Origin: Bradyrhizobium jicamae
GTDB lineage: Bacteria; Pseudomonadota; Alphaproteobacteria; Rhizobiales; Xanthobacteraceae
Assembly: GCF_018130695.1 (NCBI RefSeq)
Contig: NZ_JAFCJX010000014.1
Coordinates: 1 to 64,000 of the forward strand
DNA: 64,000 bases
Direction: 5' to 3'
This document shows positions 41,881 to 57,951 of the stretch, one piece after another. The notes under the pieces are model-generated. The model was not told where the DNA came from. It made no database searches and was given only the letters and a program-made list of their open reading frames with translations. The position numbers and the translations under genes are program-made. Each line of letters opens with the position of its first letter. The stretch's first letter is position 1.

Positions 41881-41951
41881 CTGCCGTAAAGGCTTGACGG
41901 CCGGCGTTGGGGTCGGTCAAACCCGCCGTCCTCACAACGGGATGTTTGATC

Positions 41952-42656
41952 ATGGCAGCAGGCAAGGTTGCGCTCGTCACCGCGGGCGGCAGTGGCATGG
42001 GAGCGGCCGCAGCGCGGCGGCTCGCGGCGGATGGTTTCCACGTCGCGATCCTGTCGTCGTCGGGCAAGGGCGAGGCGCTGGCGAAAGAACTCGGCGGCAT
42101 CGGCTTCACCGGATCGAACCGTTCCAACGATGATCTCAAGCGCGCGGTCGACGGCGTCATCGCGCAATGGGGGCGCATCGACGTGCTCGTCAACAGCGCC
42201 GGCCACGGGCCGCGCGCGCCGGTGCTGGAGCTGACGGACGAGCAGTGGCACACCGGGCTCGATGTTTATCTCTTGAATGTGATCCGCCCGACGCGGTTGG
42301 TCGCACCTGTCATGCAGGCGCAGAAGTCCGGCGCCGTGATCAACATCTCCACCGCCTGGGCGTTCGAGCCGAGCGCGCAGTTCCCGACGTCCGCGGTGTT
42401 TCGCGCCGGCCTCGCCGCGTTCACGAAATTGTTCACCGATGCCTACGCTGCGCACAACATGCGCATGAACAATGTGCTGCCGGGTTGGATCGACAGCCTG
42501 CCCGCCACCGAAGAGCGCCGCGCCAGCGTGCCGATGCAGCGTTATGGCAAGATGGAGGAGATCGCGGCAACGATCGCGTTCCTCGCGAGCGAGGGTGCCG
42601 CCTACATCACCGGCCAGAACATCCGCGTCGACGGCGGATTGATGCGGTCGATCTAG
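41952..42656 (+). CDS. Short-chain dehydrogenase/reductase with degenerate active site
   Basis: A 234-residue Rossmann protein of the classical SDR type. The cofactor motif TAGGSGMG (10-17) and the NSAG loop (81-84) are present, and VINISTAW holds Ser133. The usual Y-x-x-x-K is replaced by SAVFR (Ser147, Arg151), so classical catalysis is doubtful. C-terminal LPGWIDSLP and GQNIRVDGGLMRSI are standard. It may be a binding or regulatory SDR, or use other residues. Gene is followed by a palindromic repeat and the monooxygenase-esterase fusion gene. Confidence 0.85.
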   Translation: MAAGKVALVTAGGSGMGAAAARRLAADGFHVAILSSSGKGEALAKELGGIGFTGSNRSNDDLKRAVDGVIAQWGRIDVLVNSAGHGPRAPVLELTDEQWHTGLDVYLLNVIRPTRLVAPVMQAQKSGAVINISTAWAFEPSAQFPTSAVFRAGLAAFTKLFTDAYAAHNMRMNNVLPGWIDSLPATEERRASVPMQRYGKMEEIAATIAFLASEGAAYITGQNIRVDGGLMRSI

Positions 42657-42660
42657 TTTG

Positions 42661-42763
42661 CCCTCATGGTGAGGAGCGCGGAACGCGCGTCTCGAACCAT
42701 GAGGCCACACCTCGGGCCTGCATCCTTCGAGACGCCCGCTTTGCGGGCTCCTCAGGATGAGGG
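42661..42763. repeat. Palindromic repeat (family D)
   Basis: Arms CCCTCATGGTGAGGAGCGCG and GCGGGCTCCTCAGGATGAGG, matching the copy at 31045-31177 but with a shorter centre. Confidence 0.78.
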
Positions 42764-42915
42764 GCGGAATTCGTGATGCGATCCACTTGGATCCACTTGC
42801 GTCCACACGCTACGCACATCGTGCCAGAGCGACCTCCGATTGAATTTGTCCTGATGACAAACTTCGATCGCAGGACTAGCCTTCCGCAATAATCAAAACC
42901 CGCGGGAGGAATCGC

Positions 42916-45588
42916 ATGGTGGACGCAGCAGTCGCAGCGCGCACGGCTTCGGACGCGAACAAGGATGCAACGCAACGAACCGTCGACGTTGCAGTGGTCG
43001 GCGCCGGTTTCGCTGGCCTCTATCTTCTGCACCGGCTGCGCAAGACCGGCTTCTCGGCCGTGGTGCTGGAGGAGGCCGGCGATGTCGGGGGCACCTGGTA
43101 CTGGAACCGCTATCCCGGCGCGCGCTGCGACATCCAGACCATCGACTACAGCTACACATTCGATCCCGAGCTCGACAAGGCCTGGACCTGGTCCGAGAAG
43201 TACGCCACGCAACCGGAGATCCTGCGCTATCTCGGCTTCGTCGCCGATCGCTACGATCTGCGGCGCGACATCCGCTTCGGCACCAAGGTCAAGCAGGCGA
43301 CATGGGATGACGCCCATGCGCACTGGAAGCTGTCGACCGATCACGGCGACATCTCCTGCCGCTACTACATCATGGCAACGGGCTGCCTCTCCGCGCCAAA
43401 ACCGCCGGAGATCGACGGCGTCAAGGATTTCAAGGGCCCCGTTTACTTCACCGGACGCTGGCCGCATGAGGGCGTCGATCTCAAGGGCAAGCGCGTCGCC
43501 GTGATCGGCACGGGATCGTCGGGTATCCAGTCGATTCCTGTTATCGCCGAGCAGGCCGCGCATCTCACCGTGTTCCAGCGCACGCCGAACTTCGCGCTGC
43601 CCGCGGGCAACGGCCCGTCGCCGGAGGATCGCAGAACCTATTTCGAAACCGACCGCGCCGCCTATCGCGAGCAGGCGCGCTGGTCGATGGCGGGCGTGCC
43701 CTATCCGCAGCAGATGGAGGTGAGCTGGCAGCTCAGCGATGCCGAGCGCCGCGCGCGGTTCGAGAAGGCGTGGGCGGCCGGCGATCTCGTCCACATCCTG
43801 ACCCAGCTCTGGGCCGACCAGGCCGTCGACGTCGACGGCAACAAGATCGTGGCGGATCTGATCCGCGAGAAGATCCACGAGGTGGTCAAGGATCCCGAGA
43901 TCGCGGCGGCGCTGACACCGCACGATCATCCCTTCGGTGCCAAGCGGCCCTGCCTCGATACCAATTACTATGCGACCTATAATCGTCCGAACGTGACGCT
44001 GGTGAATCTGCGGCAGGAGCCGATCAAGGCGATCACCGCATCGGGCATCACCACCGACAAGCGCAGCATCGATGTCGACGCCATCGTGTTCGCGACCGGC
44101 TTCGATGCGATGACCGGCGCGATCATGGCGGTGCATCCGATCACCGGCCGCGCCGGCCGCTCGCTGTCGAAGGAGTGGGCGCACGGGCCGCAGAGCTATC
44201 TTGGCCTCACTGTCGCGGGCTTCCCGAACCTGTTCATGATCACCGGTCCCGGCAGCCCGTCGGTGCTGTCGAACATGGCCGTGTCGATCGAGCAGCATGT
44301 CGAGTGGGTGGTCGATCGCCTCGCGGCAACACGTGACGCCGGCTTCACCACCCTCGAAGCGACCGAGACGGCGCAAGCCGGCTGGGAGCGGCACATGGCC
44401 GACTGCGCCACGCTGACGCTGCATCGACTCGCCAACACCTGGTACACCGGCGCCAACGTGCCGGGCAAACCGCAGGGCGTGATGCCTTATACGGGCGGCG
44501 TCGGTCCGTATCGCAGCATCTGCAACGAGGTCGTCAGCCGCGGCATGCTCGGCTTCAAGCTGACCGGGCCTGATGTCGAAGCGCAATGCAATGACGGCGA
44601 GGTGGTGCGGCTGCAGCCCGACGTGCGCCTTGTGCTCAACATGCTCGGCGAGATGAACCTGCCGCCGATCGAGACCATGGGCGCGCAGGGCGCCCGCGAC
44701 TTCCTCAACGCGTTCAACCAGGGCCGCCCCGCGGGACGCCCGGTCGGCGAAGTCGGTTCTGGTCTGTTGCAGGGCGCCGAGGGGCCGCTGCCCTACAAGC
44801 TCTATCGTCCGGCGACGCCGGGACCGCATCCGATCCTGGTTTATTTCCACGGCGGCGGCTGGGTGCTCGGTGACGAGCAATCGGACGATCCGTTCTGCCG
44901 CGACATCTGCCGGCGCACCGGCATGATCGTGGTCAGCGTCGGCTATCGCCACGCGCCGGAGCATCGCTTCCCGGCGGCGGCCGAAGACGGCTACGCCGCG
45001 ATGAAATGGATCGCCGAGCATACCAACGAGCTCGGCGGCCGGCCCGGTCCGGTGCTGGTCGCGGGCTGGAGCGCCGGCGGCAACATCGCGGCCGTTACCT
45101 GCCAGCTCGCGCGCGATCGCGGCGGGCCGCAGATCGCGGGCCAGTTGCTGGTGTGCCCGGTCACCGACTGCAGCTTCGATCGTCAATCCTATGTCGACAA
45201 CGCTGCCGGCTATTTCCTGACGCGCGGACTGATGTACTGGTTCTGGGACATCTACTGCTCGCCGGCCGACCGCACCGATCCCAGGGTGTCGCCGCTGCGC
45301 GGCAAGCTCGAGGGCTTGCCGCCGGCCTATATCGTCACCTGCGAGTTCGATCCGCTGCGCGACGAAGGCATTGCCTATGGCGAGGCGCTGGCGAAGGCCG
45401 GCGTGCCGGTCGAGCAGTTGAAGGCGTCCGGCCAGTTCCACTCGTCCTTCACCATGGTCGACGTCATCATCACCGGCGTTGCCGGCCGCGTGAAGATGGC
45501 GCAGGCGCTGCGTCGCTTCGCCGGGCTGCCCGAGGAGATCGCGCAAAACGACCGCGACGCGCCGCGGGTCAACGCGGCGGCGTCGTAG
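42916..45588 (+). CDS. Fusion: Baeyer-Villiger-type monooxygenase and HSL-family esterase
   Basis: An 890-residue protein. Residues about 24-590 form a flavin monooxygenase with the FAD motif VVGAGFAGL (28-36), the NADPH motif [10 protein letters not shown], and a Baeyer-Villiger fingerprint FxGxxxHxxxWP in which the His is Phe (F172-K-G174 ... F178 ... W182-P183). Residues about 625-880 form an HSL/GDXG esterase: HGGGW oxyanion motif (645-649), GWSAG with Ser719, Asp812 and His842. A GGGAGGA ribosome binding site precedes the ATG. Such a fusion would insert oxygen beside a ketone and then hydrolyse the ester. Confidence 0.88.
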
Positions 45589-50364: not shown

Positions 50365-51006
50365 TCAGTCCGCCTGCTTCCGATACGCCGCGAAGAACAC
50401 GCGCGTCGCGCTGTCGACCACCGCGGCGATCCGTTCGGGCGAGGGCGAGGGGGCGGCCTGGAAGATGAAGGCCTGGAACAGCGTCGCCTGGCACATCTGC
50501 ATGAACTGCCAGGCAGCGAGCTGCGTGTCATCAATCACGAGTCCGTCCAGCTCGACGCGCGCGTCGAGATAGGCGGCGAAGCGGTCGACGGTGGCGACGA
50601 TGACGTGCTGGTAGAAGCGGGTGCCGACATCCGGCATCCGCTCGGCGATCGCCATCACGGTGCGGATCGCCGAGCCTCCGCCGGGGCGGCAGAGCAGGGT
50701 GATGTAGGCCCGGCCGAATTCGGGGAGGGTGGTGTCGACATCGCGCCCCGGATCGAAATTGAAGGCGGTCTTGCCCTGCTCGATCTTCTCGGCCTCGACG
50801 ATCGCCTCGAACAGCCGGCTCTTGTCGGCGAAATAGACGTAGAGCGTGCCCTTGGAGACCCCGGCCGAGCGGGCGATCTCGCCCATGCTGGCGCCGTCAA
50901 AACCCAGGTCCATGAAGACCTTACGGGCGCCGTCGAGGATCTGGCGGCGCTTCGAGGAGTCCTCGTCGCCGACGATATGGAGCGGGTTTTGCTGGATTGC
51001 AACCAT
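50365..51006 (-). CDS. TetR-family repressor of the adjacent pump
   Basis: A 213-residue TetR regulator. The DNA-binding domain is residues about 18-65 (RRQILDGARKVFMDLGFDGASMGEIARSAGVSKGTLYVYFADKSRLFEAIV). The C-terminal part resembles the AefR-like group. It is divergent from an EmrAB-type pump, and a long perfect palindrome lies between them, so it most likely represses both. The ligand is unknown. A TetR-like autoregulated efflux module is inferred. Confidence 0.9.
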   Translation of the reverse strand: MVAIQQNPLHIVGDEDSSKRRQILDGARKVFMDLGFDGASMGEIARSAGVSKGTLYVYFADKSRLFEAIVEAEKIEQGKTAFNFDPGRDVDTTLPEFGRAYITLLCRPGGGSAIRTVMAIAERMPDVGTRFYQHVIVATVDRFAAYLDARVELDGLVIDDTQLAAWQFMQMCQATLFQAFIFQAAPSPSPERIAAVVDSATRVFFAAYRKQAD

Positions 51007-51092
51007 TGGTTTAGGCTCTCGGGAAAGAAATCAACCCACAATAGGAAAGGGCAGGAATCGAACGGTTATAATCCATCCAATGGGAATATACG

Positions 51093-51113
51093 TTGACCGA
51101 ACCGTTCGGTCAA
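51093..51113 (+). promoter_or_regulatory. TetR operator
   Basis: Arms TTGACCGAAC and GTTCGGTCAA around one central C: a perfect inverted repeat 80-100 bp upstream of both the tetR gene and emrA, in the A/T-rich divergent promoter. Confidence 0.8.
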
Positions 51114-51192
51114 TGGTAGATATGTGGTACGATGCTCCTCGGAGGCCAATTCCGGCTGTCGGCGTGCATCGGGTTTTTGTGAGGAAGCCGTA

Positions 51193-52494
51193 ATGGCCGC
51201 AGCGAGAGACCAGGCCGCGCGTATCGTTCGTTCCGAAGCGGACGACGGCGCGCAGGAAACGCCCGCCAACCTCGGCGAGCAGCTGCGGAGCCATGCGACC
51301 GAGGAGGCCAAGCGCCGCCCCGAAGACAAGCCGGCCGAGCAGCCAGCTGCACCCGCGGCACCTGCGGCTCCCGCAGCATCGGCGCCTGCGGCCGCCGCGC
51401 CAAAATCCGGCAAGCGCAAATTCATCATGATGGGCGTGCTCGGCCTGCTCGCGCTCGCCGCCGCCGGCTATGCGACCTACTACGTCATGATCGGGCGCTT
51501 CTACGTCTCGACCGACGACGCCTATGTCCGCGCCAACAACACCATGCTCGGCGCGCGCGTCTCCGGCCACATCGCCAAGATCTTGCCCGGCGACAATTCG
51601 CTGGTGCGTGCCGGCGACGTCGTCTTCAAGATCGATGACGGCGACTATCGCATCGCGGTCGAGGCCGCGCGCACCAAGATCGGCACCCAGCAGGCGACCA
51701 TCGACCGCATCGGCCGCCAGGTGACGGCGCTGGAGAGCGCGGTCGAGCAGGCCAAGGCGCAGCTCGTCTCCGCCGAAGCCGGCCTGAAGCGCGCCGGTCT
51801 CGATTTCGACCGCCAGCAGGCGCTGAGCACCAAGGGCTTTGCCTCGCGCGCCACCTTCGAAGTGTCGGAAGCCAGCCGCGACCAGGGCGTCGCCGCGGTG
51901 AAGTCGGCGCAGGCGGCCTATGACGCCGCCAAGGACAATGTCGACGTCACCCGCGCGCAGCAGGCCGAGGCCCGCGCCGCGCTTGCGGAGCTGCAGACCT
52001 CGCTCGCCAAGGCCGAGCGCGACCTCGAATTCACCAGCGTGCGCGCGCCGGTCGACGGCACCTTCTCCAACCGCCTGGTCAATCTCGGCGATTTCATCGC
52101 GGTCGGCCAGCGGCTCGGCAATGTGGTGCCGCTCGATGACGTCTTCATCGACGCCAACTACAAGGAGACGCAGCTGAAGCGCATCCGCACCGGCCAGCCG
52201 GTGAAGATCATGGTCGACGCCTACGGCATGCGGAAATTCACCGGCATCGTCGACAGCATCTCGCCGGCCTCGGGCTCGGTGTTCACCCTGCTGCCGCCCG
52301 ACAATGCGACCGGCAACTTCACCAAGATCGTGCAGCGCGTGCCGGTGCGGATCCGCGTGCCGCGCAGCGTCGCGAAGCAGGGCCTGCTGCGCGCGGGCAT
52401 GTCGGTCTACACCACCGTCGACACCCGCGAGGGCGCCGCCGATGCCGACAACGACACCGACCTCGACTCGCCGCTGATGATCCATCCGCAGTAG
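51193..52494 (+). CDS. EmrA/HlyD-type membrane fusion protein
   Basis: A 433-residue periplasmic adaptor of a tripartite efflux pump. A short Ala/Pro-rich cytoplasmic N-terminus (about 1-72) precedes one transmembrane helix (about 76-98). A biotinyl-lipoyl half (STDDAYVRANNTMLGARVSGHIAKILPGDNSLVRAGD), a coiled-coil hairpin rich in Gln/Ala/Glu, the second lipoyl half (FTSVRAPVDGTFSNRLVNLGDFIAVGQ) and a beta barrel follow, as in EmrA. GAGGAAG precedes the ATG. It pairs with the downstream MFS pump. Confidence 0.92.
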   Translation: MAAARDQAARIVRSEADDGAQETPANLGEQLRSHATEEAKRRPEDKPAEQPAAPAAPAAPAASAPAAAAPKSGKRKFIMMGVLGLLALAAAGYATYYVMIGRFYVSTDDAYVRANNTMLGARVSGHIAKILPGDNSLVRAGDVVFKIDDGDYRIAVEAARTKIGTQQATIDRIGRQVTALESAVEQAKAQLVSAEAGLKRAGLDFDRQQALSTKGFASRATFEVSEASRDQGVAAVKSAQAAYDAAKDNVDVTRAQQAEARAALAELQTSLAKAERDLEFTSVRAPVDGTFSNRLVNLGDFIAVGQRLGNVVPLDDVFIDANYKETQLKRIRTGQPVKIMVDAYGMRKFTGIVDSISPASGSVFTLLPPDNATGNFTKIVQRVPVRIRVPRSVAKQGLLRAGMSVYTTVDTREGAADADNDTDLDSPLMIHPQ

Positions 52495-52542
52495 GACCTG
52501 CTGCAATGATGTTCGGCACACCGCCAGCCCGCGCGACACTGC

Positions 52543-52720
52543 GCCCCCTCTCCCGCTTGCGGGGGAGGGTTGGGGTGGGGGTGTCTCCACAATCGATTCT
52601 CCCAATGCGGAGTGAGCCCCCACCCGCCGCGCTCTTCGAGCGCCATAGCCGAAGCTTCGCTTCGGCGTTCTTTAGAGACGGCCGCCAAAGGCGGCCTACG
52701 CTCCCCCGCACGCGGGAGAG
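52543..52720. repeat. Palindromic repeat (family A) with nested insertion
   Basis: Outer arms CTCTCCCGCTTGCGGGGGAG and CTCCCCCGCACGCGGGAGAG. Compared with 17933-18065 it has about 50 extra bases at roughly 52643-52699 that themselves hold hairpins GCCGAAGCTTCGCTTCGGC and GGCCGCCAAAGGCGGCC. Confidence 0.75.
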
Positions 52721-52749
52721 GTGCAGCGAACTCGTGGCTCGATAATTCC

Positions 52750-54342
52750 ATGGCTGACGCGACCACAGCTTCGCCCTCGACGATGAGCGCCGTGCCGCCG
52801 GCCTCCGAGCGCATCCAGCCGAGGCGGCTGTTTGCGTTCATCATCATGGTGTTCGGGATGTTCATGTCGATCCTGGACATCCAGATCGTCTCGGCATCGC
52901 TCTCCGACATCCAGGCCGGCTTGTCGGCGAGCTCATCCGAAATCTCCTGGGTACAGACCGCCTACCTGATCGCCGAGGTGATCGCGATCCCGCTCTCCGG
53001 CTTCCTGTCGCGCGCGCTCGGCACGCGGATGCTGTTCGCGATCTCCGCTTTCGGCTTCACCGTCTCGAGCCTGCTCTGCGGCTTCGCCACCTCGATCGAG
53101 CAGATGATCCTGTGGCGCGCGCTGCAGGGTTTCCTCGGCGCCGGCATGATTCCGACGGTGTTCGCGTCCGCCTATCTGATCTTCCCGCGCACCAAATTCC
53201 ACATCGTCGCGCCGATCATCGGCCTCGTTGCTACACTCGCGCCGACTGTCGGCCCGACCGTCGGCGGCTACATCACCGACCTGATGTCGTGGCACTGGCT
53301 GTTCTTCATCAACATCGTACCCGGCATCGGCATCACCGTCGGCGTGCTGGCACTGGTCGATTTCGACCAGCCGAACCTCGCGCTGCTCGATCGCTTCGAC
53401 TGGTGGGGCCTGTTGTTCATGGCCGGCTTCCTCGGCTCGCTCGAATATGTGCTCGAGGAGGGCCCGCAATATGAATGGCTGCAGGACACCTCGGTGGCGG
53501 TCTGCGCCGCGGTCTGCTTCGTCGCGGCGATCGCCTTCTTCTGGCGGGTGCTGACGGCGGAAGAGCCGATCGTCGATCTCTACGCCTTCTCCAACCGCAA
53601 CTTCGCGGTCGGCTCCACGCTGCAGTTCTGCATCGGCATCGGGCTCTACGGCCTGACCTACATCTATCCGCGCTATCTCGCCGAGGTGCGCGGCTACAGC
53701 GCGCTGATGATCGGCGAAACCGTGTTCGTCTCCGGCGCGACCATGTTCCTGGTCGCGCCGCTGATCGGCCGCCTGATGCAGAAGGTCGATCTGCGCTACA
53801 TGATTTGCTTCGGCCTCGTCGTGTTCGCGCTCGGCTCCTGGCAGATGACCTGGATCACCCGCGACTACGATTTCTACGAGCTGCTGGTGCCACAGATCCT
53901 GCGCGGCATCGGCATGATGTGCGCGATGGTGCCGACCAACAACATCGCGCTGGCGACGCTGGCGCCCGAGCGGGTGAAGAATGCCTCGGGCCTGTACAAT
54001 CTGATGCGCAACCTCGGCGGCGCGGTCGGCCTCGCCGTGATCAACCAGGTGCTCAACGAGCGCACCGATCTGCACATCTCGCGGCTGCAGGACCGTGTCG
54101 GTTGGGGCAACACGACGGCGGTCGAGACGCTCAACAATTTCACCCAGCGCCTGCAGGGCATGGGCGACGCCACGCTGATGGCGATGAAGCAGCTGTCGCA
54201 GCTCGTGCACCGCCAGGCCGTGGTGATGGGCTATGGCGACGCCTTTTTCCTGCTGGCGCTGTTCTACCTCGCGCTGAGCGTGCTGATCCTGTTCGTCAAC
54301 AAGCCGCCGTCGTTGCAGGGCGGTGGCGGCGACGCGCACTGA
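52750..54342 (+). CDS. DHA2-family MFS drug efflux pump (EmrB-like)
   Basis: A 530-residue 14-helix major facilitator of the EmrB/QacA group. Typical segments are FMSILDIQIVSASLSDIQAGLSASSSEISWVQTAYLIAEVIAIPLSGFLSRALGTR and the motif C-like GLVATLAPTVGPTVGGYITD. The start at 52750 skips a repeat-derived upstream extension. It works with the membrane fusion protein encoded upstream; an outer-membrane TolC-type partner must come from elsewhere. Regulated by the divergent TetR. Confidence 0.92.
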   Translation: MADATTASPSTMSAVPPASERIQPRRLFAFIIMVFGMFMSILDIQIVSASLSDIQAGLSASSSEISWVQTAYLIAEVIAIPLSGFLSRALGTRMLFAISAFGFTVSSLLCGFATSIEQMILWRALQGFLGAGMIPTVFASAYLIFPRTKFHIVAPIIGLVATLAPTVGPTVGGYITDLMSWHWLFFINIVPGIGITVGVLALVDFDQPNLALLDRFDWWGLLFMAGFLGSLEYVLEEGPQYEWLQDTSVAVCAAVCFVAAIAFFWRVLTAEEPIVDLYAFSNRNFAVGSTLQFCIGIGLYGLTYIYPRYLAEVRGYSALMIGETVFVSGATMFLVAPLIGRLMQKVDLRYMICFGLVVFALGSWQMTWITRDYDFYELLVPQILRGIGMMCAMVPTNNIALATLAPERVKNASGLYNLMRNLGGAVGLAVINQVLNERTDLHISRLQDRVGWGNTTAVETLNNFTQRLQGMGDATLMAMKQLSQLVHRQAVVMGYGDAFFLLALFYLALSVLILFVNKPPSLQGGGGDAH

Positions 54343-54469
54343 GTCATTGCGGCCACACTGCTGCGGTTTGATGCGCTGCGCGCAGCGCTCACGGGCTTGT
54401 CATCTTGCAATTTGCGCGTGATGGATTTATAAGCACGCGCATTGTTCAACTCGAACCCGGGAGATTTGC

Positions 54470-54535
54470 ATGATTTCGATGCTTTCGCAGATCGCGCGCC
54501 CGCGTTCGATGTGGCTCGTTGCCGTCGCGCACTGA
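54470..54535 (+). CDS. 21-residue peptide, possible leader peptide
   Basis: MISMLSQIARPRSMWLVAVA then H and a TGA stop. A CCGGGAGA ribosome binding site lies just before the ATG. It precedes the ABC exporter by about 150 bp and is followed by a hairpin with stem TGATCGGG / CCCGATCA (54547-54569). It could be a regulatory leader that stalls ribosomes under drug stress, or chance. Confidence 0.4.
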   Translation: MISMLSQIARPRSMWLVAVAH

Positions 54536-54546
54536 GCCTTAAGCTC

Positions 54547-54569
54547 TGATCGGGATTGATCCCCGATCA
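54547..54569 (+). promoter_or_regulatory. Hairpin upstream of ABC exporter
   Basis: Stem TGATCGGG / CCCGATCA with a 7-base loop. No T-run follows, so it may be an attenuator part rather than a terminator. The rest of 54343-54687 shows no other gene. Confidence 0.35.
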
Positions 54570-54687
54570 CCCAAGCTTCCCAACACGTTACCGAATTTTT
54601 TCAACGACGCTTGCGGCGGGATTCCGTGCTCCGCTCGCGTCATTTCAGATGGAGCCGGCTGGCGCTTTCGCGTCGCCGGAACGCGCC

Positions 54688-56490
54688 ATGACCGCACAAG
54701 CTCGTAACCGTCCCGCCGCGATCCGGATCGTGATCCCGTTCGTGGTTCGCCATTGGCTGGAGCAGCCCTGGCGGACCGCCGCCGTGATCGCAGGCTTCCT
54801 CGGCGCAACGCTTTCCGACCTGTTCATGCCAGTCTATTCCGGCCGGCTGATCGACGCGCTCACCTCGGGCGCCTCGGATGATGCTGCGCATCGCGCGGCG
54901 ATCAGGGCGTTCGGCGCGATCGTCGCGCTCGGCGCGCTGTCGATCACGCTCCGCATGGGCGGGTTGCAGGCGCTGGTGCCGTTCACGCTGAGGACGATGT
55001 CCGACGTGGCGCGGAACGCGTTCGCGCGGGTGCAGCGCTTCTCGACCGACTGGCACGCCAATTCCTTTGCCGGCTCGACCGTGCGCAAGATCACGCGCGG
55101 CATGTGGGCGCTCGACCTGTTGAACGACACCGTCCTGATGGCGTTGTTGCCGTCGCTGGTGGTGCTGTTCGGCTCGATGATCCTGCTCGGCCTGCACTGG
55201 CCGGTGCTGGGTGTCGTGATCGCGATCGGCTCGGTGATCTATGTGGCGATGACGGTGCTGTTCTCGGTGCGCTACATCGCGCCGGCCGCGCGCGTCTCCA
55301 ACGCATGGGACACCAAGGTCGGCGGCACGCTGGCGGATGCCATGACCTGCAACGCGGTCGTCAAGTCGTTCGGCGCGGAACTGCGCGAGGACTCGCGGCT
55401 CGATGGCGTCATCAGCCGCTGGGGCCGCCGCGTGCGGCGGACCTGGCTGCGTTACAATGCCACCGGGGCGGCGCAACTCGTCGTGCTGCTGTGCTTCCGC
55501 ACCTCGGTGATCGGCGGTGCGATCCTGCTGTGGGCGGCCGGCCGCGCCACGCCGGGCGACGTCACCTATGTGCTGACCAGCTACTACGTGATCCACGCTT
55601 ACTTGCGGGACGTCGGCATGCACATCAACAACCTGCAGCGTTCGGTGAACGACATGGAGGAGCTGGTTCAAATCCATGACGAGCCGCTCGGCATCGTTGA
55701 TGCCGTCGATGCACGCGAGATCGTCATCGAGGGTGGCCGCATCGTGTTCGACGACGTCACGTTCCACTACGGCGGTCATCGTCGGCCGCTCTATGACGGG
55801 CTGTCGATCGAGATCCGCGCGGGCGAGCGGGTCGGCCTGGTCGGGCGCTCCGGCTCCGGCAAGACGACTTTCGTCAAGCTGGTGCAGCGGCTCTACGACG
55901 TCTCCGGCGGACAGATCCTGATCGACGGTCAGGATATCGCTCACGCGACGCAGCAATCGCTGCGCAGCCAGATCGCGATCGTGCAGCAGGACCCGATCCT
56001 GTTTCACCGCACGCTGGCGGAGAACATCGCCTATGGCCGGCCGGGCGCGAGCATGGCGGCGATCGAGCAGGCGGCGCGGCTTGCCAATGCGCACGACTTC
56101 ATCATGCGGCTGCCGAAGGCTTACGGCACGCTGGTGGGCGAGCGCGGAGTCAAGCTGTCGGGCGGCGAGCGGCAGCGCGTGGCGCTGGCGCGCGCCTTCC
56201 TGGCGGATGCGCCGGTGCTGATCCTGGACGAGGCGACCTCGAGCCTCGATTCGGAATCGGAGGCGCTGATCCAGCAGGCGATGGAGCGGCTGATGAAGGG
56301 CCGGACCTCGATCGTGATCGCGCATCGTCTGTCGACGGTGCGCAGCATGGATCGGATCCTGGTGTTTGATCACGGCGAGATCGTCGAGCAGGGCACGCAC
56401 GCGGCCCTGACCGCGCGGCCGGGCGGCATCTATCGCAGCCTGTTCGAGCGTCAGGTCACCGAGTTCGGGCAGAACGCGGCGGCCGGATAA
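54688..56490 (+). CDS. ABC exporter, fused membrane and ATPase domains
   Basis: A 600-residue half-transporter of the multidrug/lipid exporter type. Residues about 20-330 hold six transmembrane helices. The nucleotide-binding domain (about 350-590) has Walker A LVGRSGSGKTTFVKL, Q-loop IVQQDPILF, signature LSGGERQRVALARA, Walker B VLILDEATSSLDSES and the H-loop VIAHRLSTV. It should work as a homodimer. The ATG at 54688 is chosen; one at 54649 is possible. Followed by a MATE pump gene, together an efflux unit. Confidence 0.92.
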   Translation: MTAQARNRPAAIRIVIPFVVRHWLEQPWRTAAVIAGFLGATLSDLFMPVYSGRLIDALTSGASDDAAHRAAIRAFGAIVALGALSITLRMGGLQALVPFTLRTMSDVARNAFARVQRFSTDWHANSFAGSTVRKITRGMWALDLLNDTVLMALLPSLVVLFGSMILLGLHWPVLGVVIAIGSVIYVAMTVLFSVRYIAPAARVSNAWDTKVGGTLADAMTCNAVVKSFGAELREDSRLDGVISRWGRRVRRTWLRYNATGAAQLVVLLCFRTSVIGGAILLWAAGRATPGDVTYVLTSYYVIHAYLRDVGMHINNLQRSVNDMEELVQIHDEPLGIVDAVDAREIVIEGGRIVFDDVTFHYGGHRRPLYDGLSIEIRAGERVGLVGRSGSGKTTFVKLVQRLYDVSGGQILIDGQDIAHATQQSLRSQIAIVQQDPILFHRTLAENIAYGRPGASMAAIEQAARLANAHDFIMRLPKAYGTLVGERGVKLSGGERQRVALARAFLADAPVLILDEATSSLDSESEALIQQAMERLMKGRTSIVIAHRLSTVRSMDRILVFDHGEIVEQGTHAALTARPGGIYRSLFERQVTEFGQNAAAG

Positions 56491-56553
56491 ACCGATGGCA
56501 AGTGGCTGGCGGGGCTTGTGTTCCGTCAGTCACGTCGCCGAGGATGGAATGAG

Positions 56554-57951
56554 ATGAAAGACTTAACGCAAGGCTCGATCACGGGCCACATCCTGATCAT
56601 GGCACCGCCGATCGTCGTCGGCATGGTGACGATCATGGTCTGCCAGCTGATCGACCTGTACTTCGTCGCCGATCTCGGCGAGGCGGCGGTTGCGGGCGTG
56701 GCTGCGGCCGGCAACGCCGGATTCCTGATCAATGGGCTGATGCAGGTGCTCGGCGTCGGCACGGTCGCGCTGGTCTCGCATGCCGTGGGCCGCAAGGACA
56801 AGCGCGACGCCAACCGGATCTTCAACCAGGGAATCGTGCTGGCGGTGCTGTGCGGGCTGCTGACGCTCGTCGCCGGTGCCGTGCTGTCGCGCCCCTACAT
56901 GCGTGCGGTCGCGGCCGATCGCGCCACCATCGAGGCCGGCACGACGTATCTGCTGTGGTTCATGCCGGCGCTGGCGCTGCAATTCGCCGCGCAGGTGATG
57001 GGGGCCGCATTGCGGGCGACCGGCATCGTGCGGCCGGGCATGCTGGTGCAGGTGCTGGCGGTGTTCATCAACATTGCACTGGCGCCGGTGTTGATCGCGG
57101 GCTGGGGCACCGGATATGCGCTTGGTGTTGCCGGTGCAGGCCTGGCAAGCTCGATTGCCGTTGGCATCGGCGTGCTGATGCTGCTGGGGTATTTCCTCAA
57201 GGTAGAGCGCTATGTCAGCTTCGATCCCGCGCAATGGCGCCCGGAGCTGACGCAATGGCGACGCATCCTCAATGTCGGCCTGCCCGCCGGCGGCGAGTTT
57301 GCGATGATCTTCATCTTCATGGCGGTGGTCTATTATGTGCTGCGCGATTTCGGCGCCGCGGCGCAGGCCGGCTTCGGCATCGGCACGCGCGTGCTCGGGC
57401 TGATCCAGATGCCGGCGCTGGCGGTCGCGCTCGCGGCGGGGCCGATCGCCGGCCAGAACTTTGGCGCGGGCAATGCCGCACGCGTGCGCGAGACGTTTGT
57501 GAAGGCGGCGCTGATCGGCACGGCCGTGATGCTGGTGTTCATGGCGCTGGCGCAGTTCGCGCCCGGGCTCCTGCTGGGCGGCTTCTCCAACGATCGCGAG
57601 ACCATGGCGGTGGCCGGCCAGTTTCTGCACTTCGTGTCGTTCAACCTCGTTGCGCAGGGATTTGTCTTCGTCTGCTCCAGCATGTTCCAGGGGCTCGGCA
57701 ACACCAAGCCGGTGCTCTTGAGCTCGGCGTCGCGGGTGCTGACCTATTCGCTGCCGGCGGTCTGGCTGTCGACGCGGCCGGGCTTTGCGATCGAGCAGGT
57801 CTGGTACCTGTCGATCGCGACGACGACGCTGCAGGCGGCGCTGAGCGTGTGGCTGCTGCGGCGCGAGCTCAACAAGCGGCTCGCGCCGCTCACTCCGCCG
57901 CGAGCTGCGCCTCGCGAGGAGGCGGTGTCTTCTGCGCCCGCGTCCGCGTAG
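56554..57951 (+). CDS. MATE-family efflux transporter
   Basis: A 465-residue MATE protein with twelve helices, exporting cationic drugs or metabolites in exchange for H+ or Na+. APPIVVGMVTIMVCQLIDLYFVADLGEAAVAGVAAAGNAGFLINGL in the first bundle and AGPIAGQNFGAGNAARVRE at the start of the second are diagnostic. It lies 63 bp after the ABC exporter. Its last 62 bases overlap the end of the convergent EamA gene. Confidence 0.93.
   Translation: MKDLTQGSITGHILIMAPPIVVGMVTIMVCQLIDLYFVADLGEAAVAGVAAAGNAGFLINGLMQVLGVGTVALVSHAVGRKDKRDANRIFNQGIVLAVLCGLLTLVAGAVLSRPYMRAVAADRATIEAGTTYLLWFMPALALQFAAQVMGAALRATGIVRPGMLVQVLAVFINIALAPVLIAGWGTGYALGVAGAGLASSIAVGIGVLMLLGYFLKVERYVSFDPAQWRPELTQWRRILNVGLPAGGEFAMIFIFMAVVYYVLRDFGAAAQAGFGIGTRVLGLIQMPALAVALAAGPIAGQNFGAGNAARVRETFVKAALIGTAVMLVFMALAQFAPGLLLGGFSNDRETMAVAGQFLHFVSFNLVAQGFVFVCSSMFQGLGNTKPVLLSSASRVLTYSLPAVWLSTRPGFAIEQVWYLSIATTTLQAALSVWLLRRELNKRLAPLTPPRAAPREEAVSSAPASA

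Follow-up and report, generated by a model that had tools for sequence, protein, structure and literature searches.

Here we show the anatomy, the conservation and the repeated origin of a natural fusion between a type I Baeyer-Villiger monooxygenase (BVMO) and an esterase, whose BVMO half carries a phenylalanine at the position of the fingerprint histidine. The gene lies in a stretch of 64,000 nucleotides from Bradyrhizobium jicamae (hereafter the window), and consists of a single intact frame that opens with ATG, has zero internal stops and encodes 890 amino acids (Table 1). Judging from the sequences compared below, BVMO-esterase fusion arose several times and in both domain orders, with three fused groups lacking the fingerprint His and two bearing it. 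The original prediction had described the gene as a fusion of the two enzymes in one polypeptide, and this description held up against the frame itself, Pfam, the closest PDB match and a structure model.

Table 1. Features of the BVMO-esterase fusion gene and its upstream neighbour, in window coordinates
Feature	Coordinates	Strand	Basis
Short-chain dehydrogenase (SDR), 260 bp upstream of the fusion, possible ketone-forming partner	41907..42656	+	domain search
Whole gene, BVMO-esterase fusion, 890 aa	42916..45588	+	ORF list; full-length relatives
BVMO domain, PAMO-like, residues 20-553	42973..44574	+	1w4x, E 1.5e-171; Foldseek TM 0.94 by target length to 2ylw (PAMO structure)
First Rossmann motif GAGFAG, residues 29-34, FAD	43000..43017	+	sequence; conserved columns 29, 31, 34
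First BVMO motif, including catalytic Asp72 (PAMO Asp66)	43087..43131	+	alignment to 1w4x
Lys162 (aligned to PAMO Gln157), covaries with fingerprint His loss	43399..43401	+	column screen, alignment
BVMO fingerprint, residues 172-183	43429..43464	+	sequence
Phe178, codon TTC, at the fingerprint His position (PAMO His173)	43447..43449	+	F in 48/48 close relatives
Second Rossmann motif GTGSSG, residues 198-203, NADPH	43507..43524	+	sequence; conserved columns 198, 200
Catalytic Arg344 (PAMO Arg337)	43945..43947	+	alignment; R in 48/48 close relatives
Connecting and cap region, residues 554-640, helices and two strands	44575..44835	+	model, ten-residue pLDDT means 82-96
Esterase domain, HSL family, Abhydrolase_3, residues 641-843	44836..45444	+	Pfam E 1.1e-75
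Ser719, nucleophile in GWSAGG	45070..45072	+	invariant in 25/25 aligned fused proteins
Triad Asp812	45349..45351	+	sequence; alignment of 25 fused proteins
Triad His842	45439..45441	+	sequence; alignment of 25 fused proteins

Sequence comparison and modelling both lend good support to the two-domain reading. Pfam assigns Rossmann domains of flavoproteins to the N-terminal half and Abhydrolase_3 to the C-terminal half, and the closest PDB sequence matches to residues 1-562 are phenylacetone monooxygenase (PAMO, 1w4x) and then steroid monooxygenase. A model built from 25 aligned fused proteins (mean pLDDT 84.8, pTM 0.81) matches PAMO structures with its BVMO half over ~530 columns, at a TM of up to 0.94-0.95 by target length in Foldseek, and has pLDDT below 50 at residues 158-161, 396-400 and 511-521, which partly adjoin residues of interest. 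The protein conforms to the type I BVMO motif [A/G]GxWxxxx[F/Y]P[G/M]xxxD, has the catalytic Asp and Arg of this class as D72 and R344, and matches every fixed position of the fingerprint FxGxxxHxxxW[P/D] except the His. It shares with PAMO the fold, ~50% sequence identity, both Rossmann motifs, the first BVMO motif and the catalytic pair, and differs from it in having Phe178 for His173 and Lys162 for Gln157. Furthermore, the PAMO chain of 542 residues ends with the BVMO domain, whereas the window protein continues into an esterase.

In that esterase, HGGG (645-648) and GWSAGG are present along with the Asp and the His of the triad, and the prediction of a complete Ser719-Asp812-His842 triad is borne out residue by residue. 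We take HGGG, GxSxGG and the Asp and His of the triad to be the hallmarks of HSL-family esterases (bacterial lipase family IV). Over residues 568-854 the domain aligns with LipP1-type hormone-sensitive lipases (NCBIfam NF058653) at 332.7 bits, but unlike these it stays under the curated cut-off of 350 and is joined to a BVMO; the Bacillota fusion at locus L080 exceeds this cut-off with 460.8 bits. On the opposite strand, an open frame of 960 aa (42664..45546, minus strand), longer than the gene itself, covers most of the fusion gene; it is probably the mirror frame of a high-GC coding sequence and does not in itself argue for a gene.

Searching the genome collection with an alignment built from four fused proteins yielded 80 loci, the best 80 of 583 confirmed relatives, comprising 27 fused (23 without and 4 with His) and 53 unfused BVMOs (7 without and 46 with His); this sample is non-random, as sequences resembling the first row rank higher and the search patterns require TW[WY]WNRY or W[TQE]WSE[RK][FY]A. 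With all loci pooled and identical BVMO domains counted once, we arrived at 197 sequences, 84 fused and 113 unfused. The fingerprint His is missing from 77 of the 84 distinct fused sequences, against 11 of the 113 unfused ones (H in 102, another residue in 11). A separate same-strand esterase gene lies within 1.5 kb of 41 of the 113 distinct unfused BVMO sequences, and so the pairing of BVMO and esterase looks selected.

The fused sequences form five groups. Group I, to which the window protein belongs, has 65 members from Bradyrhizobium, Vineibacter, Gammaproteobacteria, Chromatiales, Mycobacterium, Pseudonocardia and others (Pseudomonadota and Actinomycetota), 26 of which were placed in the tree, where they form one clade; the remainder are close Bradyrhizobium copies. 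The replacement of the fingerprint His by Phe178, as originally predicted, was confirmed, and the alignment of fused homologues at this residue that the prediction had called for gives F in 58, S, Y and V in two each and L in one, with His in 0/65. Group II (n = 6), in which the esterase precedes the BVMO, has I in three and V in three members, and group III (n = 6) has T in two and R, F, S and L in one each. Groups IV (Bacillota) and V (Amycolatopsis) retain His, in 6/6 and 1/1 sequences, respectively. One group III fusion, with Arg at the fingerprint position (L074, 3848-6484), resides on a plasmid of Bradyrhizobium sp. CB82 that was typed as conjugative; its start as annotated falls within the domain, and the frame lacks the first Rossmann motif. 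In the family of Neobacillus (L208-L229), BVMO and esterase genes occur adjacent to each other in both orders and also as fusions that start with the BVMO; those sequences that were read carry His. These loci form a natural series for studying how BVMO-esterase fusions originate.

How much of a regular BVMO is left when the His is absent? As a reference we used the 90 columns that are at least 95% conserved in 92 unfused His-bearing rows, in which column 178 scores 100% by construction because the rows were picked for having His. Clade I (26 rows) keeps 89 of these 90 columns by majority and loses 178 alone, as do the 11 unfused His-free rows. Group II (6 rows) loses 178 and 220, group III (6 rows) 178 and 464, and the seven fused His-bearing rows lose 414. 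None of the compared groups varies at catalytic Asp72 or Arg344, and the Gly columns of both Rossmann motifs (29-34 and 198-203) are likewise kept across them.

When His-bearing rows were screened against all four His-free groups, columns 163 and 162 ranked first. Lys162 is present in 44 of 49 His-free rows versus 5 of 99 His-bearing rows, and four of these five (L119, L139, L143 and L169) rank with the closest relatives of clades I and II; the other is L200. On the tree, Lys162 needs three changes and His loss seven (eight on the tree of 92 domains). The small number of Lys162 changes, together with its presence in His-bearing near relatives, suggests that Lys162 came first and made His loss tolerable. 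A pair test of His against Lys162 had too few independent contrasts for significance and was far underpowered, and Lys162 is a candidate permissive change for His loss, a lead and no more. A wider reading, which we hold tentatively and lean somewhat against, is that Lys162, in the context LSxxKxP, marks a second natural form of the fingerprint. It would have arisen a few times and replaced the function of His or made it needless, after which His was lost repeatedly. The His-free form would then be fully active and normal in several BVMO lineages, mostly joined to an esterase in either order, and would have been overlooked by surveys filtered on FxGxxxHxxxW.

We consider it probable that the window protein is a working bifunctional enzyme that takes a ketone through an ester to an acid plus an alcohol, with both activities and their action in series inferred. 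A ketone would enter the BVMO half, where NADPH reduces the flavin, and a peroxyflavin held by Arg344 would insert oxygen from O2 to yield an ester, which the HSL half would cleave through Ser719-Asp812-His842 into acid plus alcohol; in net terms, one polypeptide would cut a C-C bond. The chemical steps within each domain are established for PAMO and for HSL esterases. Its clade of fused proteins is widespread and has given up the fingerprint His, mostly for Phe, but retains the catalytic Asp and Arg together with both nucleotide-binding motifs, and Lys162, sixteen residues upstream of Phe178, may be what made this loss tolerable. In favor of a working enzyme, both domains are complete, their catalytic residues are kept and dN/dS is low in both. 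That the two would act in series on one substrate is suggested by their repeated pairing and fusion, and by BpfC and BpfD of Sphingobium yanoikuyae, a BVMO and an alpha/beta hydrolase biochemically reported to act in series on a ketone; unlike the window protein, these are two separate proteins, and BpfC is reported to carry a full fingerprint (PMC12724174). Weighing against this reading, Phe is incapable of acid-base or hydrogen-bond work, and the esterase could serve esters other than the product of the BVMO. In the open-licence PMC literature, we found no measured activity of a fused member.

The original prediction raised the concern that studied enzymes suffer from loss of the His. The mutants summarized in PMC3762062 are in line with it: mutation of this residue lowered the efficiency of CHMO and inactivated HAPMO. 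The same source describes BVMOAf1 from Aspergillus fumigatus, a 905-aa two-domain protein whose fingerprint naturally carries H173Q. As a truncated enzyme linked to phosphite dehydrogenase, it showed stereoselective activity (kcat ~0.5 per second) and converted 4 of the 46 compounds screened. The concern thus holds for mutants, while a natural enzyme has been published that escapes it. This exception carries Gln and not Phe, however, and its second domain is named a putative polynucleotide synthase in that paper.

It is conceivable, though we regard it as unlikely, that the flavoprotein monooxygenase in the N-terminal half has shifted to other chemistry, such as heteroatom oxidation or poorly coupled NADPH oxidation, and that the esterase serves another step or substrate. 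Phe178, or another non-His residue, stands at a position needed in the studied mutants (PMC3762062), the residue varies both between and within clades, and positions 162 (Lys) and 163, which lie sixteen and fifteen residues before it, vary together with it. Yet the invariance of Asp72 and Arg344 in every compared group argues against such a change, and the repeated adjacency and fusion to esterases fits ester-forming chemistry. Of the two options initially offered for Phe178, namely that the fingerprint varies in this clade or that the N-terminal part does something else, it is the former that finds support, in the 65/65 clade I sequences without His, in the retention of the other columns and in the natural active His-to-Gln BVMO of PMC3762062. 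Taken as a whole, the original interpretation is supported in part.

The trees point to separate origins of the fused groups. In the tree of 92 BVMO domains, computed with column 178 excluded, clades I (support 100/100) and II (100/99) are recovered, the nearest relative of clade II being L119, which has His and a separate upstream esterase gene; group III lies inside a nine-row group with zero His (100/91). In the esterase tree, groups I, II and III each form one clade (100/99, 100/93 and 99/95), with II among genes found upstream of BVMO genes, III beside the downstream gene of L103, and V with downstream genes. A single clade of I, II and III is rejected by the BVMO domain (p-AU 7e-61) and has a p-AU of 3.6e-67 for the esterase domain; I and II as one clade are compatible with the BVMO data (p-AU 0.243), but one fused ancestor for the two is rejected by the esterase domain (p-AU 0.0015), and a single origin of all His-free rows is rejected as well (p-AU 0.015), all of these tests being weakened by the fact that the groups were named after the trees had been seen. 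The fused proteins thus drew on at least three esterase lineages. In groups II, III, IV and V, the fused order equals the gene order in the nearest unfused relatives with a neighbouring esterase, which, combined with several origins, is the pattern expected from repeated fusion of neighbouring genes. For group I, the nearest BVMO with a neighbouring esterase is L088, where the esterase lies downstream and is of another lineage.

Does fusion then cause, or even require, the loss of His, for instance through an esterase domain that restrains domain movements served by this residue? The skewed counts given above and the absence of His from groups I, II and III alike would seem to tie the two together. 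Nevertheless, we find this quite unlikely: the counts overstate the association, since the sequences are related and were sampled with fused queries, groups IV and V are fused with His kept, and the 11 unfused sequences that also lack His include the nearest relatives of group III. Moreover, independent-pairs tests were non-significant (median p 0.5; p 1), with too few independent contrasts. The notion that fusion always goes with His loss is weakened by the His-bearing fusions of Bacillota and Amycolatopsis and by these pair tests. Fusion is therefore not a proven cause of His loss, which also occurs in unfused proteins.

Of 195 genomes in the genus of the window, counting the one it comes from, 192 have a match at E <= 1e-170, and in 167 of these 195 the best E is printed as 0, which we took as fusion level because all such hits among the matches listed are full-length and unfused BVMOs reach only ~1e-190. 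Among the matches listed, identity to the full-length relatives within the genus ranges from 89 to 81%, and Bradyrhizobium acaciae (L090), the nearest named relative, is 88% identical and has the gene order around the locus in common. The family search (198 genomes) added one further genus with the fusion (G304, 81% identical), and the order search (297 genomes) returned no match better than E 1e-193 outside the genus. Fusions of some kind were found in 8 of 240 genomes of the class, including the window's (threshold E 1e-255), in 5 of 296 genomes of the phylum of the Pseudonocardia genome, including the centre genome (beyond E 1e-275), in the centre genome only for the class of the Chromatiales genome (229 genomes), and, as a single frame, in 5 of 101 genomes of the family of the Neobacillus genome, one of them incomplete; as these searches used differing thresholds, their counts are not comparable as rates.

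Both domains are under purifying selection: compared with 47 relatives, the median dN/dS (Nei-Gojobori) is 0.156 in the BVMO part and 0.205 in the esterase part. This set of 48 sequences comprises fused proteins scoring >1000 bits to the BVMO part of the window protein, that is, Bradyrhizobium-type sequences plus L054, from another genus of the same family, and L158, from a Vineibacter genome. D72, R344 and F178 (codon TTC) are found in 48/48, and the esterase triad residues in 47/48. The exception, L104 (from 5953, Bradyrhizobium sp. AT1), has an esterase part that leaves the frame after ~140 residues within an open frame of 1685 aa in total, and is possibly a pseudogene or a sequencing error. 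Although the loss of a hallmark residue might suggest that the BVMO half survives only as an inactive or structural remnant beside an esterase that works alone, its median dN/dS is no higher than that of the esterase part and the other 89 of the 90 strongly conserved columns are kept, which makes such a remnant very improbable. An artefact of assembly, annotation or frameshift joining two genes, for which the separate neighbouring genes common in other lineages might be held up, can be dismissed as next to impossible, since the fused frame recurs across many independent genomes, within the genus as well as in other phyla. The outcome named beforehand as speaking against the fusion was a locus with two separate genes, and the genus instead shows matches at fusion level in 167 of 195 genomes.

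Around the window gene, the upstream SDR could form the ketone from an alcohol; it adjoins the fusion in 4 of the 21 loci examined, some of the close relatives only and with many flanks of only ~1.5 kb, and its neighbourhood with the fusion is not general. Flanks of one to three genes each were sampled at L082, L085, L086, L089, L090, L091, L096, L098, L100, L101 and L109; across about nine clade I loci beyond the window, the flanking genes vary between genomes, and no conserved operon that would name a substrate was found. Further downstream in the window, 50365-57951 holds an exporter cluster in which a TetR-family regulator adjoins genes for an HlyD-type membrane fusion protein and for MFS, ABC and MatE transporters. 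The same genome also carries an unfused BVMO with Arg at the fingerprint His position (YAGELLRAGRWPH; L004, contig 1, 428613-430217, minus strand).

BVMO-esterase pairs are already known as separate proteins. For the natural fusion and the His-free fused clades, we found no description in the titles and abstract openings of the open-licence PMC literature. The survey in PMC4498894 discarded sequences that lacked either fingerprint, PMC9044951 describes the fingerprint as a super-hallmark and remarks on its possible degeneracy, and PMC7570161 searched for BVMOs with FxGxxxHxxxW fixed, whereas PMC3762062 allowed His or Gln at this position. Since the filters of the first three require His, groups I to III fall outside them.

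These findings indicate that searches which demand the His miss entire clades, from at least two phyla, whose BVMOs are otherwise regular. The His-free clades make the role of the fingerprint His directly testable, as it was lost more than once and with a candidate partner change at 162. Furthermore, the fusions, available in both domain orders, would be ready-made single-protein biocatalysts for ketone cleavage if their predicted activity holds. For the bacteria themselves, they point to a likely catabolic function shared by most of the species sampled in one soil genus.
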